Assembly: GCA_005887685.1 (NCBI GenBank)
Contig: VBHJ01000006.1
Coordinates: 1-40,010, forward strand
Source: Chloroflexota bacterium
Lineage (GTDB): Bacteria; Chloroflexota; Dormibacteria; Dormibacterales; Dormibacteraceae
Length of the DNA: 40,010 bases
Reading direction: 5' to 3'
Each line of letters begins with the position of its first letter. Within the stretch, counting starts at the first letter, position 1. This document shows, piece by piece, positions 3,862-26,569 of the stretch. A program made the translations under genes and the position numbers. The notes below the pieces were generated by a model that searched no databases, was not told where the DNA came from, and saw only the letters and a list, made by a program, of their open reading frames with translations.

Positions 3862-4638
3862 ATGGCGGCGGACAACCTGCACGACGCGGAATGGGACGTG
3901 CTTCCATATTCGCCACATCCCGCTCACATGCACATGGCCCTCGACGAGGTGCTGCTCGACCAGGTCATGCATGGAAGTCGGCGGCCGACGCTGCGATTGT
4001 GGCGGTGGATCGAACCAGCGCTGGTGATTGGATCGCACCAGTCGGTGCGAAACGAGATCGACCTTCAGAACGCTGCAGCGCTCGGTTTCATCGTCACCCG
4101 GCGCATGAGCGGCGGCGGCACAATGCTGTGCGAGCCAGGACGCACGATCACCTACTCGATGTACCTGCCCGAGTCGATGGTCGCGGGAATCAGCTTTCGC
4201 AAGTCATACGCGCTGCTCGACGACTGGGCGGTGCGTGCGTTCAACGGGCTGGGGATTCCCGCGTCTTATCGCGAGATCAACGACATCGTCTCCCCGCGAG
4301 GCAAGATCGGTGGCGCCGCGCAGGCCCGCCGGCGCGGGTTTGTTCTGCACCACACGACGATCGCACACTCGATGGATGTCGAGCTGCTGCCGCGCCTGAT
4401 CAGGATCGGTCGTGACCGCATCGCGGAGCGCGGGGTTCGCAGCGCTGACAAGGCGGTGTCTCCGTTGTCCTGGTTCACGCGGCTCTCATGCGATGAGGTG
4501 GCCGCGCACATGCAGGGATTTTTCATCCGCGAATTTCACGCAGAGGAAAGCACGCTCACGCGCGAGGAGCTCGCAGCAGCGACGCAGCTGGTCGCCTCGA
4601 AATACTCCGAGGCGCCATGGATCAACCGGCTGGCTTAG
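3862..4638 (+). CDS. Lipoate-protein ligase A family protein
   Basis: A 258-residue protein with the BPL/LplA/LipB fold (PF03099). These enzymes attach lipoate or octanoate to the lysine of lipoyl domains, or transfer it between them. Visible motifs are RRMSGGGTMLCEPG (from residue 80), matching the RR-x-SGGG lipoyl/AMP loop, the conserved-lysine segment GKIGGAAQ near residue 150, and HHTTIAHSMD, matching the HGTLL-like motif. The separate LplA C-terminal accessory domain is only partly represented, so it could be an LipM/LipL-type octanoyltransferase rather than a free-lipoate ligase. No lipA or dehydrogenase-complex gene is nearby. The start at ATG 3862 has no strong ribosome site; its 3' end overlaps the convergent DinB-like gene by 17 bases. 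Confidence 0.78.
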   Translation: MAADNLHDAEWDVLPYSPHPAHMHMALDEVLLDQVMHGSRRPTLRLWRWIEPALVIGSHQSVRNEIDLQNAAALGFIVTRRMSGGGTMLCEPGRTITYSMYLPESMVAGISFRKSYALLDDWAVRAFNGLGIPASYREINDIVSPRGKIGGAAQARRRGFVLHHTTIAHSMDVELLPRLIRIGRDRIAERGVRSADKAVSPLSWFTRLSCDEVAAHMQGFFIREFHAEESTLTREELAAATQLVASKYSEAPWINRLA

Positions 4639-5137
4639 TAGACCTCCACTCCGCGACGAGATCGGCGCTCTGCTCGACGTGCTCGCGATAGTGGTCGCGC
4701 AGCCAGCCGAGGATGTCATCGGGACTCGTCGGGTACGGTTCTTGCCCGGCTCCATAGACGACCGGCGCCTTGCGGGCCCAATCCGAATCCGGCAGCTCGA
4801 GTGCCGCCGCGCGCACCGCTCCATGCAGGTGCGCCATCTCATCCAGCGATTTCCGGCGCTCCGCGGTCTTCAGGCCGCGCCTGGCCCCCGCACGAGCCTG
4901 TGCCTCCGCGCCGGTCGGATCCTGCGGGCCGATCCCGTCGAACCCGGCGGCGACGATCCCATCGAGCACGCGTCGGTAATGGACGAGCACCCAGTTGACG
5001 TGGACCTGGAGGCCGCCCAGGGAGTAGTCGTCGCCGGGCTTGAGGTACGTCAGCGCGCCGTCCGGAACGCGCGCGAACGCCTCTTCCCACTCCTTGCGGG
5101 CAGCCTCAAAGTCGGCGAGCGCCGCTTCCCGCTCCAT
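4622..5137 (-). CDS. DinB-like four-helix protein
   Basis: A 171-residue soluble, mostly helical protein. Three histidine-bearing helices (QVHVNWVLVHY about residue 45, AHLHGAV about 105, RDHYREHVEQ about 148) are spaced like the metal triad of the DinB/YfiT (damage-inducible, DUF664-type) superfamily. Members include thiol-dependent transferases that use mycothiol or bacillithiol and many proteins of unknown role. It follows the osmoprotectant binding-protein gene by 14 bases on the same strand, so it may be cotranscribed. The substrate is unknown. Confidence 0.6.
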   Translation of the reverse strand: MEREAALADFEAARKEWEEAFARVPDGALTYLKPGDDYSLGGLQVHVNWVLVHYRRVLDGIVAAGFDGIGPQDPTGAEAQARAGARRGLKTAERRKSLDEMAHLHGAVRAAALELPDSDWARKAPVVYGAGQEPYPTSPDDILGWLRDHYREHVEQSADLVAEWRSTKPAG

Positions 5138-5151
5138 CGAACCGGACGAGA

Positions 5152-6069
5152 TTAGCCGAAGTAGTTGTGCTGCTGGAGGTAGGCCTTGGTGACGACGTCG
5201 GGGTCCATGTGCTGCAGCTCGACCTGGGAGTTCAGGTTGATCAGGTCGGCCGTGCTCAGGCCCGCGCTCACGGCGTTGAGTACCTTCTTGACTTCGGCGC
5301 TCGCCACCGGCGTCCGGACGATGGGCACGACGTTGTCGGCGTTCTGCAGGTGCTTGTCATCCTGCAGCACGACCAGACCCAGAGACTGCAGGTCGGCGTC
5401 GCTGGTGAACACCAGGCCGACCTGGATGTCGTTGCTCTTGAGCGCGGCCCGGGTCAACGGGCCGTCGGTGTCAAGCGCCTTGAAACTCTTGAAGGTGATG
5501 CCATAGGTCTTCTGCAGCCCCGGCGCGCAGAAGGGGCGCGTGGGACATTCCGGCCCCGCGCCGAGCACGAGCTGGCCGCCGATCGAAGCCAGATCGGACA
5601 GCTTGGTTGCGTTGTACTTCGTCGCGTTCGCCTGGGTCATCGCGAACCCGTTCTGGTCCTGAGCTGCGGAGGGCGTGAGCGCCTGCAACCCAAGCGATTG
5701 GAGGTGGCTGTTGAGCTTGGCGGTGGTGGCGGTGACGTCGCCTGTCGCCTCGCCGGCGGCGTTGTCGTAGTACTCGAGGTCGGTCGCGGCGTAGCCGATG
5801 TAGAGATCGATCTGGCTGGACTTGATCGCGGGCGCCACGACCTCGCGCGATCCCAGGTTCAGCTTGAAGTTGACCGTGTAGCCATCGTGCTGCAGGGCCT
5901 GCCCGTAGAGCTCGGCCAGCACGCTGCCCTCCGAGAACTTGAAGCCGGCGACTGTGATCGTGCCTTTCGGCGTGTTCGAGCTGGACGAGGGCGAGCTGCC
6001 ACAGGCCACGGCCGTGAGGGCCAGTCCGATTACGGCAGCCAGCAACGCCGAGCGGGGTTTCCAGTTCAT
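5152..6069 (-). CDS. Osmoprotectant ABC transporter substrate-binding lipoprotein (OpuAC/OpuCC type)
   Basis: A 305-residue secreted lipoprotein: the signal peptide ends in LTAVAC with the lipidated Cys at position 23, followed by a Ser-rich linker. The mature part begins TITVAGFKFSEGSVLAELYGQAL, the standard opening of the OpuAC/ProX/YehZ binding proteins for glycine betaine, choline, carnitine and related quaternary amines. Further family segments are DLYIGYAATDLEYYD and GLVFTSDADL. It is the third gene of a leftward unit after two permeases, with AAGGAG/GAGAGG ribosome-site sequence before ATG 6069. The exact ligand cannot be read from the sequence. Confidence 0.88.
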   Translation of the reverse strand: MNWKPRSALLAAVIGLALTAVACGSSPSSSSNTPKGTITVAGFKFSEGSVLAELYGQALQHDGYTVNFKLNLGSREVVAPAIKSSQIDLYIGYAATDLEYYDNAAGEATGDVTATTAKLNSHLQSLGLQALTPSAAQDQNGFAMTQANATKYNATKLSDLASIGGQLVLGAGPECPTRPFCAPGLQKTYGITFKSFKALDTDGPLTRAALKSNDIQVGLVFTSDADLQSLGLVVLQDDKHLQNADNVVPIVRTPVASAEVKKVLNAVSAGLSTADLINLNSQVELQHMDPDVVTKAYLQQHNYFG

Positions 6070-6134
6070 CTGCCTCTCTCTCCTTGTCCGGGCGGGTCAG
6101 TACTCGAACCGCCAGGGATCTTTCATTCTTCCAC

Positions 6135-6839
6135 CTAAGCGGCTTTGTAGGTCACTCGGCGGGTCGAGGGAGCCCTCAGCAGCCGCATGCCCCTGGGCAC
6201 CAGGAGCCGCTCCACGGAGGCCAGCCCAAGCTCGGTCGCCAGGGCCAGGAGGGCGACCAGGATGGCTCCGGCGACGAGCTTCGTGTAATCCTGCTGGTCC
6301 AGCCCGTCGATGATGTAGCGGCCGAAGCCGCCGCCCGCGATCAGGGCGGCCAGGGTGGCGGTCGCCACGACCTGCACGGCTGAAGTTCGGATTCCGGCCA
6401 TGAGTAGAGGTACCGCGAGAGGCAACTCCACCCGCAGCACCTGGGCCAGCTCGCGGTAGCCCATCCCGCGAGCCGCGTCCTTCACGTCCGGGTCCACCTC
6501 CTGCATGGCGACGTAGCTGTTGGTCACCATCGGCGGGATGGCAAGGGCGGTGAGCGAGATGATGATCGGGGCGTCGCCCAGCCCGAAGACCTGGAACGCA
6601 AGCACGAGGAGCGCGAACGACGGCACCGCTCGCCCCACGTTCGAGATGTTGATGGCGAGGTTGCCAAACCGGCCGTAGTGTCCGAGCGCGATCCCGATCG
6701 GCAGCGCGATCGCAGCTCCGATGAGCACGGATTCCGCCGAGAGCTGGATGTGCTGGATGAGGCGGGTCGGGATCCCGTCGGGGCCGGTCCAGTGCGCGGG
6801 ATCCGTGAACCACTGCACGACGCGGACCAGGATGGCCAT
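6135..6839 (-). CDS. Osmoprotectant ABC transporter permease (OpuCB/OpuCD type), second subunit
   Basis: A 234-residue integral membrane protein with about six membrane segments and the BPD_transp_1 fold. The cytoplasmic coupling loop carries the EAA-like signature DAARGMGYRELAQVLRVELP (about residues 122-141), which docks to the ATPase. The segment GRAVPSFALLVLAF is characteristic of the OpuC/YehW permeases. ATG 6839 follows directly on the TAG stop of the preceding permease (6842-6840), so the pair is translationally linked. It forms the membrane pore with the permease at 6840-7514. Confidence 0.9.
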   Translation of the reverse strand: MAILVRVVQWFTDPAHWTGPDGIPTRLIQHIQLSAESVLIGAAIALPIGIALGHYGRFGNLAINISNVGRAVPSFALLVLAFQVFGLGDAPIIISLTALAIPPMVTNSYVAMQEVDPDVKDAARGMGYRELAQVLRVELPLAVPLLMAGIRTSAVQVVATATLAALIAGGGFGRYIIDGLDQQDYTKLVAGAILVALLALATELGLASVERLLVPRGMRLLRAPSTRRVTYKAA

Positions 6840-7514
6840 CTATGCGCTCCGAGACCAGGGAAGGGCGACCCGCTGCGACCCCGCCAGCGCCAGGTCGGCG
6901 ACCAGGGCCAGGACTATGGAGAGGACCGTGGCCACGATCAACGGGGTGTGGAAGTTCTCGACCAGGCCCTGGAGGATGAGCTGGCCGAGGCCGCCCAGGC
7001 CGATCACCGCGGTGATCGTCACCAGGCCGATGGTCGTGACGGTGGCGATCCGAATGCCGGCGAAGATCGCGGGCAGCGCCAGTGGCAGCTCGACCGTCAG
7101 CAATCGGGCCAGCGGCCGGTACCCCATCCCGTCAGCCGCATCGAGAACGTCCTTGGGGACGGCGTCCAGGCCGACCACGACGTTGCGGGTGAGGATGAGG
7201 ACGGCGTATCCGACCAGACCGATCTCGGCGGTCAGCGTGCTGAGGCCCGTGTAGGGAATGAGCAGCGCGAACAGCGCAATCGACGGAATCGTGTAGAAGA
7301 TGCCGAACACGGTCAAGACGGGGTTCCGCAAGGCCCGCCAGCGATGCGCGACCACTCCCATTGGCAGCGAGATCACCATGCCCACGCCCACGGCGATCGC
7401 CGTCAGGACGAGGTGCTGCTGCAGCGCGTCGAGAAACACGTGGACGTGGGTCGTAAGCCAGTCCCAGTTGATCCATGGGTCGACGTAAACCACCAGGAAT
7501 AGGTGCCCCGGCAT
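6840..7514 (-). CDS. Osmoprotectant ABC transporter permease (OpuCB/OpuCD type), first subunit
   Basis: A 224-residue membrane protein paralogous to its neighbour: about six membrane segments, FGIFYTIPSIALFALLIPY in place of the GRAVPSFALL segment, and the ATPase-docking loop DAADGMGYRPLARLLTVELP. It opens the leftward unit permease-permease-binding protein. ATG 7514 lies six bases after a TACCGT box that is half of the shared palindrome at 7518-7528, and no ribosome site is present, so the transcript may be leaderless. The cognate ATPase is divergent at 7535. Confidence 0.9.
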   Translation of the reverse strand: MPGHLFLVVYVDPWINWDWLTTHVHVFLDALQQHLVLTAIAVGVGMVISLPMGVVAHRWRALRNPVLTVFGIFYTIPSIALFALLIPYTGLSTLTAEIGLVGYAVLILTRNVVVGLDAVPKDVLDAADGMGYRPLARLLTVELPLALPAIFAGIRIATVTTIGLVTITAVIGLGGLGQLILQGLVENFHTPLIVATVLSIVLALVADLALAGSQRVALPWSRSA

Positions 7515-7534
7515 TCAATTACGGTAATCGAGCA
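7515..7534. promoter_or_regulatory. Divergent promoter region with palindrome ATTAC-G-GTAAT
   Basis: Only 20 bases separate the permease start (7514, minus) from the ATPase start (7535, plus). They contain a perfect 5-bp inverted repeat with one central base at 7518-7528. It provides TACGGT (7520-7525) nine bases before GTG 7535, and TACCGT (7526-7521) six bases before ATG 7514. The palindrome could be two overlapping -10 boxes, an operator, or both. Confidence 0.4.
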
Positions 7535-8521
7535 GTGATCCGCCTGGAGAACGTGACCAAGCAGTTTCCCGGCGGCTCCAACGCCGTACGCGACCTCACG
7601 CTCGAGATCGCGGACGCCCAGACCTGCGTCCTGATCGGACCCTCGGGTTGCGGCAAGACGACGACGCTGCGGATGATCAACCGGCTCACCGATCCCGACA
7701 GCGGACGGATCCTCGTCGACGGCGTCGACACGCGAGGGGTCGACCCGGCGGCGCTGCGCCTGAAGATGGGCTACGTCATCCAGCAGACGGGTCTTTTCCC
7801 GCACATGACCGTCGGCGACAACGTCGGCACTGTGCCCCGCCTGTGGAAGTGGGACAAGCGGCGCATCGACAAACGCATCGATGAGCTGCTCGAGCTGGTC
7901 GGGCTCGCCCCGTCCGAGTATCGCGACCGCTACCCGCATCAGCTGTCCGGCGGACAGCGCCAGCGGGTTGGGTTCGCGAGAGCGCTGGCCGCGGACCCGC
8001 CGGTTCTCCTGATGGACGAGCCGTTCGGGGCGGTCGACCGCATCACGCGCGAGCGCCTGCAGCAGGAGTTCATCAGCATCCAGCGCTCCATGCGCAAGAC
8101 CGTGGTCTTCGTCACCCACGACATCGACGAGGCCGTGATGGTGGGCGATCGCATCTGTCTCTTGAAGATGCAGGCGCAGGTCGCGCAGTACGACACGCCG
8201 GAAAAGATCCTCACCCACCCCGCCAGTGAATACGTGGCGGAGTTCCTTGGCCGCGAGCGCCTGGTGCGCCGCATGTCGGTCGTTGTCATCGACCCCTCGA
8301 CGCTCGAGCATCCCCCAGGCGGGCCCGCGACCAGGGAACCTCGGGTGCCACTCTCGAGCTCCTTGATCGACGCCTTCGCGGCGGCTCTGTCGAGCCCGAC
8401 CGAGCGGGCTGCCGTCTTCGAGGGCGACCGCTTTGTCGGCGCCTTCACGGCCACGTCGCTTCTCGAGTCGTTACGGCGGGCCAGCACAGAAGGAGGAGAG
8501 CAGGTTGCCGCAGGAGTTTGA
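7535..8521 (+). CDS. Osmoprotectant ABC transporter ATP-binding protein (OpuCA/ProV type)
   Basis: A 328-residue ATPase that powers the quaternary-amine importer whose permeases are divergent. Walker A is GPSGCGKT (residues 35-42), the Q-loop lies in YVIQQTGLFPHMT, the signature is LSGGQRQRVGFARAL, Walker B is VLLMDEPFGAVD and the switch histidine is in VTHDIDEA. After about residue 240 there is one short CBS-like segment (PLSSSLIDAFAAAL to FVGAFTATSLLESL), where OpuCA proteins normally carry a tandem CBS pair that senses ionic strength. GTG 7535 is chosen because VIRLENVTKQFPGG is the usual family start; the longer frame reads into the divergent gene. The 3' end overlaps the next gene by 17 bases. 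Confidence 0.88.
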   Translation: MIRLENVTKQFPGGSNAVRDLTLEIADAQTCVLIGPSGCGKTTTLRMINRLTDPDSGRILVDGVDTRGVDPAALRLKMGYVIQQTGLFPHMTVGDNVGTVPRLWKWDKRRIDKRIDELLELVGLAPSEYRDRYPHQLSGGQRQRVGFARALAADPPVLLMDEPFGAVDRITRERLQQEFISIQRSMRKTVVFVTHDIDEAVMVGDRICLLKMQAQVAQYDTPEKILTHPASEYVAEFLGRERLVRRMSVVVIDPSTLEHPPGGPATREPRVPLSSSLIDAFAAALSSPTERAAVFEGDRFVGAFTATSLLESLRRASTEGGEQVAAGV

Positions 8522-9924: not shown

Positions 9925-10245
9925 ATGGCTATCACGGTCAACGGTTCGCCGATCAATCTCGACCTGGATTCGATCCTGTTGTGGGTCGTGGTCGGGCTCG
10001 TGGCCGGCTTCCTCGCCAGCCACGTGGCGCTCGGACACGGGCTGGGACTCTTCTGGGACGTGATCGTCGGCATAATCGGCGCGTTCTTTGGCGGAATCGT
10101 GCTGGTGGGCATCTTCCACTTCAGCATCGCGATTGCCGGCCATCCGATCATCAGCGCGATGATCATGGCCTTCATCGGAGCCGCGATCCTCTTGATCATC
10201 TTCAGGCTGGTCTCGGGGCGAGGCTACCGGCGACGCGCGTTCTGA
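9925..10245 (+). CDS. GlsB/YeaQ/YmgE-like small membrane protein
   Basis: A 106-residue protein with three or four hydrophobic segments and Gly-rich helices (VVGLVAGFLASHV, DVIVGIIGAFFGGI, AFIGAAILLIIFRLV), the pattern of the GlsB/YeaQ/YmgE family often annotated as transglycosylase-associated; its biochemical role is unknown and members are often stress-induced. A GGGGG tract lies before ATG 9925. A paralogue is at 30826-31125. Its stop is followed by a strong hairpin and its last 22 bases overlap the convergent YjbR-like gene. Confidence 0.75.
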   Translation: MAITVNGSPINLDLDSILLWVVVGLVAGFLASHVALGHGLGLFWDVIVGIIGAFFGGIVLVGIFHFSIAIAGHPIISAMIMAFIGAAILLIIFRLVSGRGYRRRAF

Positions 10246-10562
10246 GCTAGCAGACGCCTGGGAGCGGTGCGCTCCCAGGCGTTCCTGACCAGGCGCTCCG
10301 CGAGGTCTGGTCCCAGGCTCGGCAGCGTCACTCTGACCCAGCCGAATCGGCCCGTGTAGGCCGAGACGGCAAACGTCTCCGGGTCCATCGCAACGAGCCC
10401 GGCCTGGTCGTCGAGTGAGGCCTTGACCGAGACTGCGGTGCCGTCCTGCGATCCCATGGCGAAGATCCGGCCGCGCACTCGAAACGTGGCCTCGCCCCAC
10501 GTTTCCACCTCCTCGGCCTCGGGCATCGAAAGGCACAGCCGCCGGAACACGCGAAACGTCAC
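10224..10562 (-). CDS. MmcQ/YjbR-like DNA-binding-fold protein
   Basis: A 112-residue protein of the MmcQ/YjbR (DUF419) family: N-terminal FRRLCLSMPEAEEVETWGEATFRVRGRIFAM, then SVKASLDDQAGLVA, then WVRVTL. The family adopts a CyaY-like double-wing fold; its molecular role is unknown. GTG 10562 overlaps the stop of the S-component gene as GTGA, making it the last gene of the riboswitch-controlled cassette. A hairpin is embedded near its 3' end and it overlaps the convergent GlsB-like gene by 22 bases. Involvement in transport is not implied by the family. Confidence 0.75.
   Translation of the reverse strand: MTFRVFRRLCLSMPEAEEVETWGEATFRVRGRIFAMGSQDGTAVSVKASLDDQAGLVAMDPETFAVSAYTGRFGWVRVTLPSLGPDLAERLVRNAWERTAPRRLLAQNARRR
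10254..10282. terminator. Strong hairpin 3' of the GlsB-like gene, inside the YjbR-like coding region
   Basis: A perfect 12-bp inverted repeat (ACGCCTGGGAGC / GCTCCCAGGCGT) with a five-base GGTGC loop begins eight bases after the stop of the rightward GlsB-like gene. There is no T-tract, so termination would be of the GC-hairpin type. The same bases encode part of the C-terminus (around NAWERTAPRR) of the convergent gene. Confidence 0.55.
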
Positions 10563-11311
10563 GTCCTCACCACCTCGAAGGTGAGGCGCGAGCGAAAACG
10601 CGACAGGGCCGCGAGCACGGGGGCCCCCAGGGCAAGCACCATGACCACGTTGCCGGCGGCTCGGAACGAGTCGTAGGCCAGCGACGTGAGGGCGTAGAAA
10701 CGGGCGAAGTGGAGCAGCGCGGTTGCCGGCGTCATCGCCGGCATCCAACCGAGGGTCGGGTTACCGCGAAATGCGGGAACCCAGTCGGTCACGTCCATGA
10801 GCGCGCCGAAGACATAGCCCATGACGCCTCCGACCGCGGCGAGCAGCAGGACATCTCGAAGCCCAGGCGACGGGCTCCGCCAGCGGCCCGCGACGCCGGC
10901 CGCCACGCCGACCCAGCCCAGAGCGAACACCTGGTAGGGAACCCACGGACCGATCCCGCCGCTGATCAAGGCCGAGACCAGGATCGAGAGCGCGCCGGCC
11001 ATGAAGCCAAAGGAGGTACCGAAGACAAACCCCGCGCACAGAACCAGGAAAAAGATCGGGTTGAAACCGCCGATACCGACGATGACGGCGAGACGCGCCG
11101 CCGAGTCGAGGGCGGCGATGGCCGCGAGGAGAGCGATCGCACGCGAGTCAAGCTGCCTGGTGCCCACCTCAACCAGGAAGAGCGCCGCGACGCAGGTGAG
11201 CATCAGCGCCCACGCCGGTGTGCTCGCCGCAAGGTCCGTACCGAGAAACGGCCACGAGAACAGGACAACGCCGGCGAGCGAGACCAGGCCGACCGGGAGG
11301 ACGCGGGTCAT
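10559..11311 (-). CDS. ECF transporter S component (probable corrinoid specificity subunit)
   Basis: A 250-residue integral membrane protein with about seven hydrophobic segments. Segments GFNPIFFLVLCAGFVFGTSF, GALSILVSALISGGIGPWVP and YQVFALGWVGVAAGV match the ECF S-component type in which the membrane subunit itself captures the vitamin; the GPW-x-P-x-Q pattern is common in predicted cobalamin-group (CbrT-like) S components. It follows the double ATPase with an ATGA overlap (11311-11308). Substrate assignment as cobalamin or a precursor rests on the upstream riboswitch and the DUF4430-like lipoprotein, not on a recognised binding residue. Confidence 0.75.
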   Translation of the reverse strand: MTRVLPVGLVSLAGVVLFSWPFLGTDLAASTPAWALMLTCVAALFLVEVGTRQLDSRAIALLAAIAALDSAARLAVIVGIGGFNPIFFLVLCAGFVFGTSFGFMAGALSILVSALISGGIGPWVPYQVFALGWVGVAAGVAGRWRSPSPGLRDVLLLAAVGGVMGYVFGALMDVTDWVPAFRGNPTLGWMPAMTPATALLHFARFYALTSLAYDSFRAAGNVVMVLALGAPVLAALSRFRSRLTFEVVRT

Positions 11312-12657
11312 GTCCGCATGGCGGGCTGCTCGGTGACCATGCCGCCGCAGACCGTGACCACCCTGTCGGCGAGCGCATCGCGCAGCTCAGCGTCGTGCGT
11401 GGCGAGCACGATGGCGGATCCGGCGTCTCGCAGCGCCGCGACCACCTTGATGAGCGCTCCGCGCGCGAAGGGATCCATGCCGCGGGTCGGCTCGTCGAGA
11501 AGCACCAGGTCCGGCCGGCCCGGCAGGACCGCCGCGAGGGCCGCGCGCTGCCGTTCGCCCGATGAAAGGTCGCGCGGATAGCGCTCCGCCATTGCGAGCA
11601 GGCCCAGCGTCGCGAGCATCTGGTCGGGATCGTCCGGCTCGCGGGCACGGTCGAGCGTCAGCCTGACTTCCGAGCGGACGGTCGGGCGATGGAGGAGGGC
11701 GGTCGGGTTCTGCGGCAGGTATGCGATGCGGCCCGGCCTGCGTTCGACTTTCCCCGCCAGCGGCTCCAGGCTGCCGGCGATGACGCGCAGCAACGTGGTC
11801 TTGCCCCCGCCGTTGGGGCCGCTGAGGGCTACCAGCTCACCGCGCCGCCCTGCGAGATTCACATCCTGCAGGACCGGGCGACCCCCGGGCCCGGCGGTGA
11901 CACCGGAGAGCGACCAGGCCTCGGCGCCCGGCGATCTGCCGATGGTCGCGTCCATCGTCAAGCGGATCGGCCGCCAGGCGGATGGCTGACGGACCTCAGC
12001 GGTGCCCCGGTCGACGACCACGACATTTTCGGCCACCTGCGTAAGCCGTTCCAGGCGGTGCTCGGAGATGACAACGGAATGGCCGGCCTGGGCCATGCGG
12101 ATCGCGCTCGAGATGACAAGCGACGCTCCTTCATCGTCGAGCTGGGAGGTGGGCTCGTCGAGCACGACCAGGCGCGGCTGCATGGCGAGCACCGAAGCGA
12201 TCGCGACGCGCTGACGCTCTCCTCCGCTCAGCGTGCGCACACGACGCCGGGCCAGGTGCATGACGCCCGCCTCGCCGAGGGCCTCATCGACCCGGTCTCG
12301 CATCGCCGCGGCGGGAACCCCGATGTTTTCGAGCCCGAAGGCGACCTCGCGCTCGACCACGTCGTACACGGCCTGCAGCTCTGGGTCCTGAAACACAAAG
12401 CCCACGGTGCGTGCGAGGTTTCGGGTCGGTGTCCGGATGATGTCCGCGCCGGCAACATCGGCCCGGCCGCTGATCCGCCCGCCGTGAAAATGAGGTACGA
12501 GGCCGTTCAGCACGCGAAGCAGTGTCGACTTGCCGCCGCCCGAAGGTCCAGCGACCAGCGTGATGCCCTCGCTGAAGTCGAGGCTGACTTCACTCAGCGC
12601 GGGCACGGCGCTGTTTGGATACCAGTACGTGAGTTGGATCAGGCGCGCCGCGGCCAC
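11308..12657 (-). CDS. ECF transporter double ATP-binding protein (fused EcfA-EcfA')
   Basis: About 449 residues with two complete ABC ATPase domains in one chain. Domain 1: Walker A GPSGGGKST (residues 37-45), signature LSGGERQRVAIASVL, Walker B LVVLDEPTSQLDD, switch His in ISEHRLERL. Domain 2: Walker A GPNGGGKTT (about 280), signature LSSGERQRAALAAVL, Walker B LVLLDEPTRGMDP, and ATHDAEL. It energises the ECF importer with EcfT. GTG 12657 gives AAARLIQLTYWYP, a normal EcfA beginning; ATG 12687 is an in-frame alternative and neither has a convincing ribosome site. It overlaps the end of ecfT by 19 bases (49 with the longer start). Confidence 0.88.
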   Translation of the reverse strand: MAAARLIQLTYWYPNSAVPALSEVSLDFSEGITLVAGPSGGGKSTLLRVLNGLVPHFHGGRISGRADVAGADIIRTPTRNLARTVGFVFQDPELQAVYDVVEREVAFGLENIGVPAAAMRDRVDEALGEAGVMHLARRRVRTLSGGERQRVAIASVLAMQPRLVVLDEPTSQLDDEGASLVISSAIRMAQAGHSVVISEHRLERLTQVAENVVVVDRGTAEVRQPSAWRPIRLTMDATIGRSPGAEAWSLSGVTAGPGGRPVLQDVNLAGRRGELVALSGPNGGGKTTLLRVIAGSLEPLAGKVERRPGRIAYLPQNPTALLHRPTVRSEVRLTLDRAREPDDPDQMLATLGLLAMAERYPRDLSSGERQRAALAAVLPGRPDLVLLDEPTRGMDPFARGALIKVVAALRDAGSAIVLATHDAELRDALADRVVTVCGGMVTEQPAMRT

Positions 12658-13466
12658 ATCAGCACCGGTACAAACAAGAGAAGGCATGCTGCGAGCGGAG
12701 CCAGACCAATCCTGGGTGCCGACAAGGAGGGGTACGCATACCAGTCGGACGCCCAGCCCATTGCGCTGGCAGCGACGAAACCAGCAGCGGCAAGGCTGGA
12801 GGCGGCGATGACGAGCCAGTCTCCGTTGCCGAGCTTCGGTCTCTGGAACGTGGTGCGCGTCGCCGAACCGAAGCCCCGCGCCTCCATCGACTCGGCGAGC
12901 TGGATCGAGCCCTCTGCGCTGGTCAGGACGACTGGGACCACGACCTCGGCCCAAGATGCCGGCCCCCGTGGCCGCCAGCCCCGGAGGCGCTGCGCCTCGG
13001 TCACCTCGGTGAACGTCGTCCCCACCATGCTGACCAGATTCATCGACGCGGCGATCGCCGTTCCAGTCCGCGACAGCGCCCTGGGCAGCGCATCCATGAC
13101 GTCATGCGGCTGGAGCATGAGGGAGAACGGTGCGGCGGCGAAGATCGCCGCCGCGATAGTGATTGCGCCGGACAGCCCGGAGGCGAGTGCCTCCAGCGTG
13201 TAGACACCGCCGAGCGCGGGGATGGAATCCGGCAGGGAAAACAGGATCGTGCGGCCCAGATGCGCGGAAACGAAATTGAGAACTACGTCGACGATCCCTA
13301 TGCATGCCACGCCCACGAGGAGGCGACGCATGCGTCGGATCCCCGCGCTGGCCGCGAGTGTGGTGAAGGCGGCCAGCAGGACGATGAGCTTGTACGCCGG
13401 ATTGGTTGTGAAGAGCACGATGAACAAGCACGCGGCCGACCATGCCGCGACCGTCCGTGCGTTCAT
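12639..13466 (-). CDS. ECF transporter transmembrane protein EcfT (CbiQ/CbrV-like)
   Basis: A 275-residue membrane protein of the CbiQ/EcfT family, the scaffold that links the S component to the ATPases. Five to six hydrophobic segments are visible. The cytoplasmic coupling region contains MEARGFGSATRTTF, the family ARG signature of the second coupling helix, and TEAQRLRGWRPRG for the first. ATG 13466 lies five bases after the lipoprotein stop, with AAGGAG and AGAGG in the preceding gene's last codons. Confidence 0.87.
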   Translation of the reverse strand: MNARTVAAWSAACLFIVLFTTNPAYKLIVLLAAFTTLAASAGIRRMRRLLVGVACIGIVDVVLNFVSAHLGRTILFSLPDSIPALGGVYTLEALASGLSGAITIAAAIFAAAPFSLMLQPHDVMDALPRALSRTGTAIAASMNLVSMVGTTFTEVTEAQRLRGWRPRGPASWAEVVVPVVLTSAEGSIQLAESMEARGFGSATRTTFQRPKLGNGDWLVIAASSLAAAGFVAASAMGWASDWYAYPSLSAPRIGLAPLAACLLLFVPVLMWPRRA

Positions 13467-13471
13467 CGCGT

Positions 13472-13960
13472 CTACCTCTGCTCCTTGGGAAGCGGTGGCG
13501 GCGCGGGGGAGGCGTCGGCGGTATACCTCCAGCCAACCGCCTCCTTGTCGTGCAGGGTCACCTGCGTGTACCCGGTTTGTGCCGGGGCCCATGCGCCGTT
13601 GGTCTCGACGAAGAGCGACCAGTTCGGCCCTGTGTCAGCGAAGCACTTGCTGAATTGAGCCGGCTCGTTGTCCACCTGGCACACCGCCTTCCCGAAGCTG
13701 AAGGTCTGCGTCTGGTACTCGACGCCCGACTGGTCCATCAGCGATTGACCGTCGATCGTGTCGCCAGCGAACCCGACACACTTTTGCAACTGCCGGCTTG
13801 CATCGGCGTGCTGCACGACCACGTATGCGCGATGAACGGCGGTTGGGTTGACGCAATTGCTTGCCGGACTCGTGGTGCTGGACGGCGAGCCGCCGCATGC
13901 ACTTACGGCAGTCAGTGTGAAGGCCAGTGTCGCGCTGGCCCATATGAGGTGCTTGCGCAC
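13472..13960 (-). CDS. Secreted lipoprotein with DUF4430 (transcobalamin C-terminal-like) domain
   Basis: A 162-residue lipoprotein: signal peptide ending LTAVSAC with Cys22 lipidated, then a Ser/Thr-rich linker. The mature region carries the pattern of the DUF4430 family, also called transcobalamin-like C-terminal: WSLFVETNGAWAPAQTGYTQ followed by LHDKEAVGWRYT. Four cysteines (in NCVNP, KCVGF, VCQVD, KCFAD) could form two disulfides. GTG 13960 has GGAGGA six bases upstream. It is the first gene below a cobalamin riboswitch and directly precedes the ECF genes, so it may capture or present corrinoids outside the cell. That role is inference; ECF systems normally need no separate binding protein. 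Confidence 0.75.
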   Translation of the reverse strand: MRKHLIWASATLAFTLTAVSACGGSPSSTTSPASNCVNPTAVHRAYVVVQHADASRQLQKCVGFAGDTIDGQSLMDQSGVEYQTQTFSFGKAVCQVDNEPAQFSKCFADTGPNWSLFVETNGAWAPAQTGYTQVTLHDKEAVGWRYTADASPAPPPLPKEQR

Positions 13961-13966
13961 GATTCG

Positions 13967-14015
13967 TCCTCCGGGCGGTCGATCCTTCCGTACGCGCTGC
14001 TGAAAGCCGACCGCC
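13967..14015 (-). promoter_or_regulatory. Possible expression platform of the cobalamin riboswitch
   Basis: On the minus strand GGCGGTC (14015-14009) is repeated inverted as GACCGCC (13980-13974), whose 3' end touches the Shine-Dalgarno GGAGGA (13972-13967). Pairing would form a stem next to the ribosome site of the lipoprotein gene, so ligand binding upstream could control translation. No T-tract terminator is visible. Confidence 0.35.
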
Positions 14016-14057
14016 AGGAGCTTTCCGTGCCGTTGCGCGCGGACGGTTTGCCGTTTC

Positions 14058-14203
14058 GGGCATTCAGGTCTCCTGGCTCGCGGATCGCCGCCCCTATCCG
14101 CCTTCCCGAGGTGTTTGCTACCTCAGTGGCTTGCTTCGGACGGAGGCTCCTCGCTCACAGTTGCGCGACAGCTCCGGTTTCGCACCGGATTCCCTTGGTG
14201 CCC
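14058..14203 (-). promoter_or_regulatory. Cobalamin (AdoCbl) riboswitch aptamer
   Basis: Read 5' to 3' on the minus strand, the element shows the conserved blocks of the cobalamin riboswitch in order: AAGGGAATCCGGTGCGAAAC, CCGGAGCTGTCGCGCAACTG, AAGCCACTGAGGTAG, TCGGGAAGGCGGAT and GCGAGCCAGGAGACCTG. Outer bases GGGCA (14203-14199) and TGCCC (14062-14058) can close P1. It lies between comB (stop at 14214) and the lipoprotein-ECF cassette, all on one strand. Binding of a cobalamin normally switches such genes off, fitting control of corrinoid uptake. Confidence 0.93.
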
Positions 14204-14213
14204 TGTGAAGATC

Positions 14214-14891
14214 TTAGCCAGCACCGCGGACCGCGGTGAGGCGGAGATAGCCGGTCTGCCGGGCGGCGGGCATCGCGAAGTCGAACAAATCGGCCTGCAG
14301 TGCAAGCTCGAGATCGGTGGGAGGGAAGCCGGGCCAAACGCCACTCATCAAGCGGTGGTAGCGCTCGCTCTCGCGGAGCGGAGCGAGGAGCTGTTCCAGG
14401 TCGGGCGGGCTGCCTTCGATGATCGCCTCCATGTACTGCGCGCATGCGTGGTCTTCGGGATAGTCGGCCGAGGCAACGAGGGTCAGGGTCTCCGGCTTCC
14501 TTAACAGGCAGGCTTGAACCGTCGCCCGCGCGACGACCAGACTCGCCGCAAAGATGTCATCGCCCTCGACTGCCGCCACCGCCTGCGTTCCCGCGGTGGA
14601 ACGCTGGATCAAGATCCGGTCCATCAGGTCGGTCGCCCGGATCCTGGTCGGCGAGTTGCTGATCGCTATCCCCTCGACGGGAAGGCCGTCCTCCTCGGCG
14701 CATATCACCGAGCCTGGGGTCTTTTCGGCGAGAGCGCGAGCCTCGGCCACGGTCTGGACGAGGCGGCACTCGCGGGCGCCGCCGGTGAGCGCGTAAGCGC
14801 TGACAGTGAAGGCGCGGAGGACGTCGATCACCACCACGACGCCGCGCGCGTGTCGCGCGCCGTCGATGCCTGTGGCGTGAACGATGTTCAC
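14214..14891 (-). CDS. comB: ComB-like 2-phosphosulfolactate phosphatase family protein
   Basis: A 225-residue protein of the ComB family, Mg2+-dependent phosphatases that convert 2-phosphosulfolactate to sulfolactate in coenzyme M synthesis; homologues are widespread in bacteria that make no coenzyme M. Visible family segments are VVVVIDVLRAFT (residues 18-29), ICAEEDGLPVEG, ISNSPTRI and QRSTAGTQAV. Start GTG 14891 is followed by NIVHATG. No other coenzyme M or sulfolactate genes are nearby, so the physiological substrate is open. It ends ten bases before the riboswitch P1 strand, so read-through from comB would traverse the riboswitch. Confidence 0.8.
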   Translation of the reverse strand: MNIVHATGIDGARHARGVVVVIDVLRAFTVSAYALTGGARECRLVQTVAEARALAEKTPGSVICAEEDGLPVEGIAISNSPTRIRATDLMDRILIQRSTAGTQAVAAVEGDDIFAASLVVARATVQACLLRKPETLTLVASADYPEDHACAQYMEAIIEGSPPDLEQLLAPLRESERYHRLMSGVWPGFPPTDLELALQADLFDFAMPAARQTGYLRLTAVRGAG

Positions 14892-19583: not shown

Positions 19584-20431
19584 GGGTGCCGCCGGACCTC
19601 GGCCTCGTAGGTGTTCTTAATCAGCATCGCCCGCGTCATCGGGCCGACCCCGCCGGGGTTCGGGGTCAGCCAACCCGCGACCTCCTCCACCCCCGGCCCC
19701 AGATCGCCGACCTGGCGCCCGTCGACCCAGTTCGTGCTCACGTCCACGACCGCGGCGCCCGGCTTGACCATCTCTCGAGTGACCAGGTTGGCGCGGCCCG
19801 CCGCTGCGACGAGGATGTCTGCGGTCCGGGTGTGACCCGCGAGGTCTCGCGTCTTGGTGTGGCAAACGGTCACCGTCGCGTTGCGCTTGAGCAGGAGCAG
19901 CGCGGTCGGCTTGCCGACCAGGTTGCTGCGCCCGACGATCACCGCATTCGCGCTTGCGATGGGAACGCCGAATTTTTCGAGCAGGTAGACGATGCCGGCC
20001 GGCGTGCAGGGCTCCACGCCATCCGACAGCCCGAGCGCGACCTTGCCTGCATTGATGGGGTGAAATCCGTCGACGTCCTTGACCGGGTCCATCTCCATCA
20101 CGATCCGAGACATGTCGATCTGCTTCGGGGTGGGCTGCTGGATGAGAATCGCGCTCACCCGCTCATCCCGATTCAGCTTCTGGACCAGGCCGAGCAGCTC
20201 CTCGGTCGTAGTGCTCGCGGGAAGCCGGTGATCCTCGGAGTCGATGCCGACGCTTCGCGCGTTGCGCTGTTTGAGCTCGACGTACTGAGCCGACGCCGGA
20301 TCGTCGCCGACCAGGACAGTCGCCAGCCGCGGCCGCGAGCCGCCCTTCGCCACCCGCTCGCTCACCGCCTGGCCGACCTCCGCGTAAACCTGCTTTGCGA
20401 CTGCCCTGCCGTCCAGGACGTGCGCCGTCAC
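19580..20431 (-). CDS. folD: Bifunctional methylene-THF dehydrogenase / methenyl-THF cyclohydrolase FolD
   Basis: A 283-residue enzyme interconverting 5,10-methylene-, 5,10-methenyl- and 10-formyl-tetrahydrofolate with NADP(H). The signatures are DPASAQYVELKQRNARSVGI with the catalytic Lys, ILIQQPTPKQID (more often QLPLP; here the substitution QPTP), MDPVKDVDGFHPINAG, PCTPAGIVYLL, IVGRSNLVGKP for the nucleotide site and TPNPGGVGPMT near the C-terminus. GTG 20431 overlaps the larC stop as GTGA. Confidence 0.95.
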   Translation of the reverse strand: MTAHVLDGRAVAKQVYAEVGQAVSERVAKGGSRPRLATVLVGDDPASAQYVELKQRNARSVGIDSEDHRLPASTTTEELLGLVQKLNRDERVSAILIQQPTPKQIDMSRIVMEMDPVKDVDGFHPINAGKVALGLSDGVEPCTPAGIVYLLEKFGVPIASANAVIVGRSNLVGKPTALLLLKRNATVTVCHTKTRDLAGHTRTADILVAAAGRANLVTREMVKPGAAVVDVSTNWVDGRQVGDLGPGVEEVAGWLTPNPGGVGPMTRAMLIKNTYEAEVRRHP

Positions 20432-21582
20432 CCGAGTCCCAGCTCCCGACGGGCCGAATCCGCCACCAATCGCATCACCTCACGGAGGTCTGTGCCGCTC
20501 TCGCGCGAGATCCGGCGGCAATCCTCGTACTCCGGCGCGACGTCGACCGGCTGACCGCCGAGCTCCTTGACCTTGACGCGGGCCGTTCCCAGCGCCGTCT
20601 TGACCTCGATGACCCGTCGCGCCGCGATGACCCGCTGCACCGGGCTAATCCGGACACCGAGCGTGGTGCTGCGTCGCAGCAGCTGGTCAGTCAGCTGAGC
20701 CACCAGCTCGGGCGGCGACATCACGCTGAGCAGGTGCCCCGGCCTTCCTTTTTTCATCAGCGCCGGGACCACCGCCACGTCCAGCGCGCCGGCTGACATC
20801 AGGTCCTCGCAAAGCGCCGCGATGAGGTTGGGTGCCATGTCGTCGAGGTTGGTCTCGACCACGGTGACGCCACTTTCGGAGGCCACCTCTTCACCGATCC
20901 ACACCGCCAGCGAGTTGGCTGGTGATTGGTTGGCGCCGATGCCGTAGCCAACCCGGCGCAGCGCCATCGTCGGGCGGTCAAAAGTCGCCACCGCGGCCAG
21001 GATGGCGGCGCCAGTAGGCGTGACCAGCTCGCGCGGCTCGTCGCTGGGTTGCAGCACGGCACCGGTGCCCTCCAGGACTCGCAGGCTGGCGGGCGCGGGC
21101 AGAGGCAATTCACCCTTGCGCCCGCGCGGCGCGGGAAGCGGAGATGCATAGACGCGGCGGACATCGAGCGCGTGCAGGAGCCAGAACGCTCCCACGAGGT
21201 CGACCAGCGTGTCGGCCCCGCCCAGCTCGTGGAGATGGAGCCCGTCCTCTTCCACGCCATGGACCCGACCCTCGGCTCGAGCGAGCCGGTTGATTGCGTC
21301 CAGCGCCGGCGACTTGACCTCGGCCGGCGCGCCTGACTCCTCGATCACGCTGCGCAGCGCGGGAACGGTCCGCTCGACCCGGTCGTCGACGCTGACGATC
21401 ACGCGTGTCCCGCCGACGTGCCCGCGCGTCTCGTGCCTCACCTCGACCGTGACCTCGTCCCCCAGGCGGAGCGCCTCGACCACCGCGTCGAGCAACGCCG
21501 CATCGGCGCCGCAGTCCACCAAGGCACCGAGCGTCATGTCCCCCGAGATACCCGAGAAACAATCGAAATAGGCAATCGTCAT
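20428..21582 (-). CDS. larC: Nickel-pincer cofactor biosynthesis protein LarC
   Basis: A 384-residue LarC, the CTP-dependent cyclometallase that inserts nickel into the pyridinium-dithiocarboxylate pincer cofactor of lactate racemase and other LarA enzymes. Family features: the start MTIAYFDCFSGISGDMTLGAL, the histidine-rich LHLHELGGADTLVDLVG, TPTGAAILAA, and the C-terminal ETNLDDMAPN and KKGRPGHLLSV. The length matches a complete LarC1-LarC2 chain. ATG 21582 overlaps the folB stop as ATGA and its own stop overlaps folD. No larA, larB or larE is in the window, so its partners must lie elsewhere. Confidence 0.92.
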   Translation of the reverse strand: MTIAYFDCFSGISGDMTLGALVDCGADAALLDAVVEALRLGDEVTVEVRHETRGHVGGTRVIVSVDDRVERTVPALRSVIEESGAPAEVKSPALDAINRLARAEGRVHGVEEDGLHLHELGGADTLVDLVGAFWLLHALDVRRVYASPLPAPRGRKGELPLPAPASLRVLEGTGAVLQPSDEPRELVTPTGAAILAAVATFDRPTMALRRVGYGIGANQSPANSLAVWIGEEVASESGVTVVETNLDDMAPNLIAALCEDLMSAGALDVAVVPALMKKGRPGHLLSVMSPPELVAQLTDQLLRRSTTLGVRISPVQRVIAARRVIEVKTALGTARVKVKELGGQPVDVAPEYEDCRRISRESGTDLREVMRLVADSARRELGLG

Positions 21583-24232: not shown

Positions 24233-24906
24233 GCCGCGCTCCTTTCGTCGCGGACGATGCGACCATCCCGCAGCTCGACCACGCGACTCGCGAAGCGCGC
24301 GATGTCCTGCTCGTGCGTGATGAGCACGATCGTGCGCGACTGCTCGGCATTGAGCCGTGTGAGCAGCCGCATGATCTCGACGCTGGAGTTGGTGTCCAGG
24401 TTTCCCGTTGGCTCGTCGGCGAGCAGGATGGCCGGGTTGGTGACCAGGGCGCGCGCGATGGCGGCTCGCTGCTGCTGGCCGCCCGAGAGCTCAGTGGGTT
24501 GATGGTTGACACGGTCGGCAAGGCCCACCGAAACGAGCGCCTCGCGTGCCCGCGCCGACCGTCCGCCTTCACCCGCGTAGATCAAAGGCATCTCGACGTT
24601 GTGGAGCGCGGTCGTGCGGGGGATGAGGTTGTAGCTCTGGAAGACGAAACCGATCTTCTTGTTGCGGATCCGCGCGAGCTGGTCGTCGGCGAGCCTGGCG
24701 ACGTCGGTGTCATCGAGGATGTAGCGACCGCTCGTCGGCACGTCGAGGCAGCCGATGATGTTCATCAGAGTCGACTTGCCGGAGCCGCTCGCGCCCATGA
24801 TGGCGACAAAGTCGCCGCGCCCGATGTACAGGTCGATGCCCTGTAGGGCGGGCACCTCGATCCTGCCCATGCGGTAGGTCTTGGTGACTCCTTCGAGGGT
24901 GATCAC
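24229..24906 (-). CDS. MacB/LolD-type ABC transporter ATP-binding protein
   Basis: A 225-residue single-domain ATPase. Walker A is GASGSGKS (residues 38-45), the Q-loop is in FVFQSYNLIPRTTALHNVEMP, the signature is LSGGQQQRAAIARAL, Walker B is ILLADEPTGNLDT, and the switch His is in LITHEQDIA. The MacB/LolD family marker TALHNVEMPL is present. It drives the permease encoded next. GTG 24906 overlaps the adaptor stop as GTGA, so adaptor, ATPase and permease are translated as a coupled set. Confidence 0.92.
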   Translation of the reverse strand: MITLEGVTKTYRMGRIEVPALQGIDLYIGRGDFVAIMGASGSGKSTLMNIIGCLDVPTSGRYILDDTDVARLADDQLARIRNKKIGFVFQSYNLIPRTTALHNVEMPLIYAGEGGRSARAREALVSVGLADRVNHQPTELSGGQQQRAAIARALVTNPAILLADEPTGNLDTNSSVEIMRLLTRLNAEQSRTIVLITHEQDIARFASRVVELRDGRIVRDERSAA

Positions 24907-26546
24907 CCGCCGCCGCCGACGCGAACTCCGCCACCGCCGAGCCCGCGGGTGCTACCGCTGCCGGTGCCGCCCGAGACTCGAACGGTGGGGATGACGATCT
25001 GCTCGCCGTCGTTCAGGCCGCCGGTCACCTCGGTGAACTGGTCGCCGACCACGCCGGTGTCGATCGGGGTCTGGACCTGCTGACCGCCGGCGTAGACGAG
25101 GACGAAGGCCTGCCCGGCGGTGTGCGTGACTGCAAGGTTGGGGACCGTCAGCGCATTCGTCGCCTTGCTCACGGTGACCGTCGCGTTCGCGGTCATGCCC
25201 TGCTTCAGCGAAGGGTCGGCCTGGTTGAGGTTGATGGTGGCGTAGTAGTTGACGACTCCGCTCGACACTGTCGCCGCGCTGGCGACCGCGATGATGTGAC
25301 CGCTGATCGTCAGGTTGGGCACGGCGTCAAACGTCACCTGCGCGTCCTGGTTGAAAGCGACCCGCGATGCATCCGATTCGGCGAACGGGACGACCACCTC
25401 GAGGCCGCTGACGTTGCCGATGACCATGAAGGCGTTGGAGGCGGCGCTCGTAGGCAGGGGAGCCTGGCTGCCGGGGGCCTCGGGCGTGGCTCCGCCGCCG
25501 GGTGAGGCGGTTTCCCCGACCACGCCGGTGATGCTGTTCACCTGGCCGTCCATCGGCGAGACGAGCGTCGTGTTGTTGAGGTTCTGCTGCGCCGTGTCGA
25601 CTGACGCCTGGGCGTTCAGGACCTGGGCTTTCGCGGATGCGATCTGGTTGGGTTTGCTCTCGGTCTGCGTGCTGAGCTGGTCCTGCGCGCCCTTCAAGGA
25701 CGCGGCCGCCTGGTTGATGCTGCGCTGGCCGCTGGTCTTGTCGCTTTGCTGCTTGGCCGTGTCCGCGGTGAGCTTGCTCCGGTCCACGGTGACCTGACCA
25801 GCGTCCACGTTCACCTTGCCCTGGTCGACGGTCACGGCGCTCTGTGCGGTGGAAACCGCGGTGAACTCGCTGAGGCATTGGGGCGAGTAGGCGGCGAATG
25901 CGACCCCCTTGCATGTGAGGTCGTTGTTGAAGGTGGCGAGCGCGGTCTGCAGCGTCGCCTTGTCGGTGTTGAGCTGCTGCAGGTCCTGCTGGTAGAGCAG
26001 GCTGTTGCTGAGCACCGCCTGGTCGTTGGTGAGCTGGTTCTGGTCGGCGCTGACCTGCGTTGCGTCCTGGGAGTTGGTCAGGTTGACCTGGGCGACCGCG
26101 TCGTTGTAGCTCTGTTGCGCGGTGCTCACGTTGTCCTGCAGCTGTGCGACCTGGTTTTGCGTCAGCGGCGTCTGCACCGACTGCAGGTTGGACTGCGCGG
26201 TGGCGAGATTGGCCTCGGCCTGGGTGAGTGCGTTTTGCTCGGCCGTGGAGTCGATCGCGGCCAGCTGCTGCCCTGCGGAGACGTGGTCGCCGACGTGGAC
26301 GTCGATCTCGGTCAGCGTGCCCGCGACCTTGAAGTTCACGTTGGACTGCTGCTGCGGCTCGACGTTGCCGGTGCCCGTGATGCTGGCGGTCACGTTGCGC
26401 CGGACGACCGTGTACAGGTTCAGCGAGCTGGCCGCGCTCTTGCTGGGCACGAACATGTCGCGGTAGATCAGGGTGCCCAGGACCAGGGCGATGATCGCCA
26501 GGCCGGCAACCACCAGGCGCGTTCTGCTCAATAATCCAATCAACAC
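24903..26546 (-). CDS. HlyD/MacA-like efflux adaptor with long coiled-coil hairpin
   Basis: About 547 residues: one N-terminal membrane helix (LVVAGLAIIALVLGTLIY), a biotinyl-lipoyl half-motif (GTLTEIDVHVGDHVSAGQQLAAID), then an unusually long Gln/Asn/Ala-rich coiled-coil hairpin (about residues 105-320). The second lipoyl half (TTLVSPMDGQVNSITGVVGE) and beta-barrel and membrane-proximal domains follow, ending in a Gly-rich tail. It links the MacB-type permease to the outside; no TolC-like gene is nearby. The start is set at GTG 26546, eight bases after GGAGG; TTG 26552 is too close to that site. Confidence 0.88.
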   Translation of the reverse strand: MLIGLLSRTRLVVAGLAIIALVLGTLIYRDMFVPSKSAASSLNLYTVVRRNVTASITGTGNVEPQQQSNVNFKVAGTLTEIDVHVGDHVSAGQQLAAIDSTAEQNALTQAEANLATAQSNLQSVQTPLTQNQVAQLQDNVSTAQQSYNDAVAQVNLTNSQDATQVSADQNQLTNDQAVLSNSLLYQQDLQQLNTDKATLQTALATFNNDLTCKGVAFAAYSPQCLSEFTAVSTAQSAVTVDQGKVNVDAGQVTVDRSKLTADTAKQQSDKTSGQRSINQAAASLKGAQDQLSTQTESKPNQIASAKAQVLNAQASVDTAQQNLNNTTLVSPMDGQVNSITGVVGETASPGGGATPEAPGSQAPLPTSAASNAFMVIGNVSGLEVVVPFAESDASRVAFNQDAQVTFDAVPNLTISGHIIAVASAATVSSGVVNYYATINLNQADPSLKQGMTANATVTVSKATNALTVPNLAVTHTAGQAFVLVYAGGQQVQTPIDTGVVGDQFTEVTGGLNDGEQIVIPTVRVSGGTGSGSTRGLGGGGVRVGGGG

Positions 26547-26569
26547 AATCAATTCCTCCGGTCAGCGAT

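Follow-up and report, generated by a model that had tools for sequence, protein, structure and literature searches.

Energy-coupling factor (ECF) importers are described as binding their vitamin by the membrane S component alone. The animal carriers of vitamin B12 (transcobalamin, intrinsic factor and haptocorrin) combine an N-terminal alpha6/alpha6 domain with a C-terminal DUF4430-like beta domain and grip B12 between the two. Here we describe an operon of a Chloroflexota bacterium (Dormibacteraceae; GenBank assembly GCA_005887685.1) in which the genes of an ECF importer follow a cobalamin riboswitch and a gene for a predicted secreted lipoprotein. The stretch analysed, 40,010 nucleotides long (contig VBHJ01000006.1, positions 1 to 40,010), is hereafter called the window. 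We propose, with a probability of about 0.6, that this operon serves B12-repressed ECF import and that the lipoprotein, as the beta part of an ancestral two-part carrier, would capture corrinoids outside the cell.

ECF-CbrT, the B12 transporter of Lactobacillus delbrueckii (structure 6FNP; PMC5997447), resembles the window system in joining a CbrT-related S component with EcfT and ATPases. Several S components there share one ECF module (group II), and the Lactobacillus cluster nrdJ-cbrS-cbrT-pduO belongs to a B12 auxotroph. In the window, by contrast, EcfT, a fused double ATPase and the S component are encoded in one riboswitch-led operon, with the lipoprotein first. Moreover, an L. rhamnosus DUF4430 protein encoded beside rtpR (LRHMDP2_2713/LGG_02295) is annotated as 'Additional lipoprotein component of putative cobalamin ECF transporter' (PMC9963975). 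The idea of a lipoprotein as an extra component of a cobalamin ECF importer is thus already known from this annotation, which ties a DUF4430-type lipoprotein to such an importer and makes the same functional guess. It differs in that the L. rhamnosus protein is named DUF4430, whereas the window protein falls below that model, in that it comes from another phylum and in that the available part of the source names no toroid partner.

The C-terminal region of TCN proteins carries a DUF4430 domain (PMC4350170). The comparison with the animal carriers extends to relatives of the window, which encode an alpha/alpha toroid and a DUF4430-like domain, mostly as neighbouring genes and in a few cases in one chain; the window differs in having the beta-like part alone, and the bacterial proteins differ in being mostly membrane anchored. 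In Bacteroidetes, BtuG and BtuH are surface B12-binding lipoproteins encoded in B12 transport loci with riboswitches, a setting like that of the window, and one homologue lies near an ECF-like cobamide transporter (PMC8941943). They are set apart from the window protein by their description there: BtuG has a beta-propeller, BtuH has its own conserved C-terminal domain, and their loci contain btuBFCD homologues.

An earlier, sequence-only reading had placed at positions 10224-14203 a cobalamin aptamer followed on the same strand by a DUF4430-like lipoprotein, EcfT, a fused double ATPase, an S component and a YjbR-like protein, tightly spaced or overlapping. All of these parts are present, on the minus strand, and their order and spacing are borne out by Rfam and Pfam matches and by the coordinates:

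14066-14195, minus strand: cobalamin riboswitch aptamer, RF00174 (cmscan 91.6 bits, E 1.4e-21)
13961-14065, minus strand: probable expression platform, a leader of 105 bases that ends in the Shine-Dalgarno site (predicted hairpin)
13472-13960, minus strand: predicted secreted lipoprotein of 162 residues with a probable DUF4430-like beta domain (GTG start, lipobox VSAC by sequence)
12639-13466, minus strand: EcfT, CbiQ family, transmembrane coupling subunit of 275 residues (PF02361, 25.7 bits)
11308-12657, minus strand: EcfA, two ATPase domains fused in one chain of 449 residues (two ABC_tran stretches, E 8e-54)
10559-11311, minus strand: EcfS, a CbrT-like S component of 250 residues (PF12822, E 2.2e-6, 28.2 bits)
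10224-10562, minus strand: YjbR-family small protein, an accessory gene (PF04237, E 9e-14)

The start codons of EcfT, EcfA and YjbR were picked by us from the sequence. Five bases separate the lipoprotein gene from EcfT and the downstream genes overlap, so that EcfT, two ATP-binding cassette (ABC) ATPase domains and an S component, which together make up an ECF transporter, lie tightly spaced on one strand. The EcfT score is barely above the PF02361 cut-off of 25 bits and that of EcfS slightly below the PF12822 cut-off of 30.7. The YjbR gene downstream of EcfS was detected in only part of the family loci.

To which substrate the importer belongs is indicated by the S component. When a profile of 20 EcfS members (A8) was compared with solved structures, the best match was CbrT (6FNP_A, E 2.2e-12, in two stretches), and the next was the folate S component FolT (E 8e-4). 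It is by this 20-member profile that CbrT is the closest solved S component; the window EcfS as a single query retrieved no S component among the solved structures. The homology to CbrT is clear at the profile level, and transport of cobalamin would follow from it by analogy. The gene content of the genome fits such a role: MetH and two further proteins with a B12-binding domain are encoded, CbiC and CobS were not detected in the draft genome, and neither was a BtuCD-type permease, the sole FecCD-family match being better described as an ABC-3 metal permease. Since MetH is present and these other genes were not detected, the genome appears to depend on imported cobalamin. The ECF operon is the only B12 importer candidate found in it, other import families not having been searched.

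Cobalamin riboswitches also control cobalt importers in general, and EcfT belongs to the CbiQ 'cobalt transport' Pfam family. We therefore considered whether the operon imports another compound that is scarce or useful under low B12, namely cobalt or a lower-ligand precursor. This we regard as very improbable: among solved S components, CbrT is by a wide margin the best match of the S-component profile, CbiM appears only once among the NCBIfam matches of the 20 EcfS members (E 0.0022), and neither cobalt nor a base could be converted to cobalamin by the usual route, because CbiC and CobS were not detected. CobT and CobU, genes of corrinoid nucleotide-loop assembly, also argue against it: in one relative (genome G025, genus g10; locus L040, positions 3885-7666, plus strand), riboswitch, lipoprotein and S component are followed by these two genes. 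The arrangement in L040 therefore ties the pair of lipoprotein and S component to corrinoids, not to cobalt. In the same genome, EcfT and a second S copy are encoded on another contig (G025:C8), apart from the riboswitch-lipoprotein unit. A separation of this unit from EcfT was seen in genus g10 (L040; G025:C8; G034:C55).

The riboswitch (14195-14066) belongs to RF00174, its 91.6 bits comparing with a gathering score of 31.5, and no second cobalamin riboswitch turned up in the genome assembly when 150 of the 198 first-look candidates were scored. In the leader that follows, a hairpin is predicted in which CUCC pairs with the GGAG of the lipoprotein gene's Shine-Dalgarno site. The 5' strand of this hairpin, CTCCTGGC (14020-14013), is the exact complement of GCCAGGAG on the 3' side of the aptamer (14077-14070). 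Because of this exact complementarity, the pairing within the hairpin and the pairing with the aptamer could be alternatives, though matches of eight bases are not unusual in themselves (4 copies of CTCCTGGC in the window against 2.5 expected). Folding energy is weak evidence here, because the region 13945-14065 (-49.1 kcal/mol) reaches a z of -1.51, with 18 of 200 shuffles equally stable, and the whole leader with the aptamer a z of -0.85, with 47 of 200 shuffles as stable. The outer stem of the hairpin is kept in 14 of 14 aligned family leaders, while two or three of them have lost some of the inner pairs. No compensatory changes or covariation were found for the hairpin in these 14 leaders, because the stem scarcely varies. 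These features suggest a translational OFF switch, in which the ligand would lock the aptamer and the anti-Shine-Dalgarno strand would close the ribosome site of the lipoprotein gene.

Taken as a mechanism, the proposal runs as follows. At high internal cobalamin the riboswitch would bind cobalamin, and the freed anti-Shine-Dalgarno strand would fold onto the ribosome site of the first gene, so that translation stops. At low cobalamin, the lipoprotein, EcfT, the fused ATPase and the S component would be produced. Judging by homology, the S component would bind cobalamin in the membrane and EcfT and EcfA would energise the uptake, as for CbrT. Outside the membrane, the lipoprotein may capture scarce corrinoids and concentrate them or pass them to the S component. 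It would be what is left of an ancestral two-part carrier, namely its beta part; the alpha part, a secreted toroid, has been kept by many relatives and is missing from this family. Our certainty is highest for the B12-repressed operon, lower for CbrT-like ECF import of cobalamin and lowest for capture and hand-off by the lipoprotein, which we infer from the operon, the domain relation and the animal analogues.

The association of lipoprotein and importer is not confined to the window, nor is it due to chance. The lipoprotein family was found in 46 of 61 relatives, own genome included, and in 100 of 400 phylum genomes. Over the 61 genomes, lipoprotein and EcfS were both present in 41 and both absent in 14, with the lipoprotein only in 5 and EcfS only in 1 (Fisher p 7e-9, relatedness not corrected for). 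To inspect the gene neighbourhoods, we used 80 fetched loci (40 regions from 39 of the 46 relatives and 40 regions from 39 of the 100 phylum genomes), hand-picked to spread over families and in some cases for long open frames; they contain 88 lipoprotein-family genes. An ECF gene lies within 5 kb on the same strand in 68 of the 80 loci, or in 66 if only EcfT or EcfS counts, the ECF evidence in L127 and L128 being one ATPase, possibly of another transporter. A cobalamin riboswitch was found within 5 kb upstream in 59 of 68 Rfam-scanned loci (RF00174; in L104 the related RF01482). Thus the earlier proposal of a cobalamin-controlled ECF importer with a dedicated lipoprotein is supported, and the arrangement recurs across one phylum. 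The lipoprotein gene compared with four relatives gave a dN/dS (ratio of non-synonymous to synonymous substitution rates) of 0.08-0.17 (NG86).

Many relatives encode a second external partner, which the window alone could not reveal. Of the fetched loci, the 48 that belong to families other than f1 and f4 all contain a toroid gene, and the 32 of f1 and f4 contain none. The toroid gene mostly lies between the riboswitch and the lipoprotein homologue, with frames of 337-857 residues, and in L113, L115 and L133 toroid and beta domain form one chain. Three toroids were tested against the Pfam squalene-cyclase C domain, two of which scored above and one below the cut-off. An AlphaFold model of six repeats from four loci (predicted local distance difference test (pLDDT) 75, predicted template-modelling score 0.79) has twelve helices, and Foldseek matched it to alpha/alpha-toroid enzymes (best E 5.8e-8; 116 matches at E<=0.001). 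The cyclase motif DxDD occurs in just 2 of 48 toroid frames, so that binding is a more likely role for the toroid than catalysis. By eye and with no predictor, the 15 aligned toroids show a signal-like N-terminal stretch and, with few exceptions, a membrane anchor-like end. A function as terpene cyclase was disfavoured, given the rarity of the motif and the signal-like starts. Two tandem beta-domain genes or domains stand beside one toroid gene in L099, L111, L125, L129 and L130.

In the window's own family, the toroid is missing. No homologue at E<=1e-5 was found in its 37 genomes, the window genome included; the alpha/alpha toroid expected of a transcobalamin-like carrier is thus absent from this genome and present in sister families. 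Four f4 genomes have a weak toroid match elsewhere (E 1e-9 to 1e-11, frames of 678-913 residues), which may be an ordinary cyclase. In an EcfA tree of 58 sequences, window excluded (34 from toroid loci, 24 not), two changes are needed, and well-supported branches force at least two toroid changes, in families f1 and f4. On this tree, the toroid gene left the operon at least twice, the window's family included.

Each loss coincides with a change in anchoring. In the toroid-less loci, 34 of 34 beta proteins lack a C-terminal membrane anchor (that of L066 is cut by the contig end) and 28 of 34 carry a lipobox by a simple pattern, whereas 43 of 49 beta proteins of toroid loci have the anchor; chains of 700 residues or more (L113, L115, L133) were excluded from these counts. 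As these counts indicate, each toroid loss goes with a short lipoprotein replacing a C-terminally anchored beta protein. The counts are not independent, because they reduce to two events. Lipid anchoring as such needs no toroid loss, since the genuine DUF4430 proteins of L153-L155 look like lipoproteins by sequence and two of them adjoin a toroid.

From this we tentatively draw a wider picture, to which we would give slightly less than even odds: Chloroflexota and relatives may possess a bacterial 'transcobalamin', anchored in the membrane and made of two proteins, an alpha-toroid and a DUF4430-like beta protein. It would catch corrinoid outside the cell and deliver it to a CbrT-like ECF importer, in most cases with a cobalamin riboswitch in control, and in lineages such as that of the window it would have been reduced, twice independently, to the beta part as a small lipoprotein. 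The absence of the toroid is observed directly; the ancestry of the lipoprotein as a remnant of such a carrier, and its function, would follow from the comparison.

Several results weigh against external capture by a transcobalamin-like lipoprotein and have to be set beside the above, beginning with the family of the lipoprotein itself. Pfam DUF4430 (PF14478) gave no match for the window protein or anywhere in its genome and touches only 1 of 36 lipoprotein family members (E 0.19). In NCBIfam, SCO2322 (NF040672) matches the window protein with 16.6 bits (E 0.0076), short of the curated cut-off of 85 bits, and is the one family that gives matches to a majority of the members (31 of 36 at E<=1, best 2.9e-7). 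By these scores the window lipoprotein is nearer to the uncharacterised SCO2322 than to Pfam DUF4430 and below the cut-off for both. The DUF4430 assignment comes from a single profile comparison and operon position: in hhalign, the 36 members aligned with 8 DUF4430 proteins of the phylum over 94 columns along the domain (probability 63.4, E 6.8e-5), and the control, the lipoprotein profile against the toroid profile, gave a probability of 0.1. The resemblance could thus be superficial, the protein being a SCO2322-type lipoprotein unrelated to the transcobalamin C-domain, with the cell wall or a different ligand as its possible target; the missing Pfam match, the SCO2322 matches and an hhalign probability of 63 rather than above 95 would all agree with this. 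We consider it quite unlikely, given the hhalign E value over 94 columns with its negative control, the genuine DUF4430 proteins that hold the same operon slot in three genomes and the occurrence of both kinds of protein beside alpha/alpha toroids.

True DUF4430 proteins were found in 6 of the 400 phylum genomes. In three of these, of 0.9-1.5 Mb (L153-L155; genomes G324, G111 and G182), the DUF4430 gene directly precedes EcfT-EcfA-EcfS, in the slot of the window lipoprotein, and in G324 and G111 a toroid gene precedes it in the ECF operon. In G390 (L152), a toroid adjoins DUF4430, with no ECF gene found at the locus, and in G182 a second DUF4430 copy (L157) is fused to a toroid. Because of the profile comparison and the shared slot in L153-L155, a distant relationship of the lipoprotein to DUF4430 is likely. 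Of the sequence-only reading, which saw in a DUF4430-like lipoprotein an external corrinoid-capturing subunit, the importer, the lipoprotein with its distant DUF4430 relation and a CbrT-like S component therefore stand, but DUF4430 as a label does not, the Pfam cut-off not being reached. Also unfavourable is that no cobalamin riboswitch was found at the true-DUF4430 loci (L150-L157). DUF4430 proteins of 125-126 residues in two same-class genomes (G043 and G388) were considered as a replacement of the lipoprotein and rejected, with neither an ECF gene nor a toroid in the fetched loci.

Structural comparison adds further adverse points. The AlphaFold model of the lipoprotein domain, built for six sequences, was too poor to use (pLDDT 44.5), and the Foldseek search with it, which gave no match at E<=0.001, was not used as evidence. 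The full-length lipoprotein profile (A1) had three matches among solved structures, in low-complexity stretches and at E 0.067 or worse, the trimmed domain profile not having been searched; the L153 DUF4430 protein had none. For the toroid, no significant match to transcobalamin, intrinsic factor or haptocorrin was found: neither transcobalamin nor intrinsic factor is among the 50 matches listed of the 116 fold matches, and Pfam Cobalamin_bind (PF01122) remained below its cut-off on two toroid fusions (E 0.027 and 0.15). On the side of substrate and distribution, the NCBIfam matches of the EcfS members are weak and most often fall on a folate family (9 of 20, best E 0.0017), and the genome is a draft, 94% complete, in which undetected genes may sit in gaps. 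Moreover, an ECF gene is lacking within 5 kb in 12 of the 80 loci. Some of these are cut by a contig end (L051, L066), one is a split locus (L042) and others hold a paralogue (L044, L045, L049, L065), which leaves L110, L123, L125, L126 and L132 with no such explanation.

The last adverse point comes from CbrT itself, which binds cyanocobalamin at 9.2 nM without a lipoprotein (PMC5997447). Because of this nanomolar affinity of CbrT alone, a capture subunit is not required in principle. The lipoprotein might accordingly bind no corrinoid at all and act as an accessory ECF partner, for example by making the S component or EcfT more stable at the outer face or by aiding the release cycle; its association with the ECF genes persists in loci without the toroid, as might be expected of a subunit of the complex. 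We regard such a role as unlikely, since elsewhere the same domain stands beside the toroid or is fused to it (L113, L115, L133), a layout shared with the animal B12 carriers that points to ligand binding, and since a paralogue is located away from ECF genes (L044, L045, L049, L065). If the lipoprotein does capture corrinoids, it would be of use when their concentration is very low or when others hold them.

A bacterial pair of toroid and DUF4430 with an ECF importer was not found in the titles and abstract openings of the open-licence papers that our searches listed. What appears to be new here, with no earlier description found, is that toroid and beta protein accompany an ECF importer as a pair across the phylum, and that this pair has been reduced to the lipoprotein by itself. 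If the lipoprotein is a conserved external partner, the B12 ECF system would be two-stage, like the classical ABC importers, and not every ECF importer would depend solely on its S component. If the pair is what it seems, the animal B12 carriers would have a bacterial counterpart whose operon and regulator are clear, and the domain plan of those carriers would go back to an ancient device for uptake in bacteria. Because the toroid is naturally absent in two cases, the role of each part could readily be tested there. A single-protein scan of genome contigs returned five loci only; among plasmid records, neither the L055 homologue nor the L153 DUF4430 protein had a relative at the limits used.

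The gene directly upstream of the riboswitch (window 14214-14891, minus strand) belongs to the PF04029 family of phosphatases (E 1.8e-28), and a PF04029 gene adjoins the operon in many family members. In two loci, a lipoprotein paralogue lies upstream of the riboswitch, behind the PF04029 (2-phosphosulpholactate phosphatase) gene (L029:5723-6205 and L030:6237-6719, both plus strand). In L044, L045, L049 and L065, the paralogue stands beside a PF04029 gene with no ECF gene nearby. Elsewhere in the window, a 549-residue frame (24903-26552, minus strand) with no Pfam match at E<=1e-8 lies beside a MacB/FtsX permease and an ABC ATPase. Moreover, a Ni_insertion (PF01969) gene at 20428-21582 (minus strand; E 4e-112), presumably LarC-like, adjoins a folate dehydrogenase/cyclohydrolase gene.

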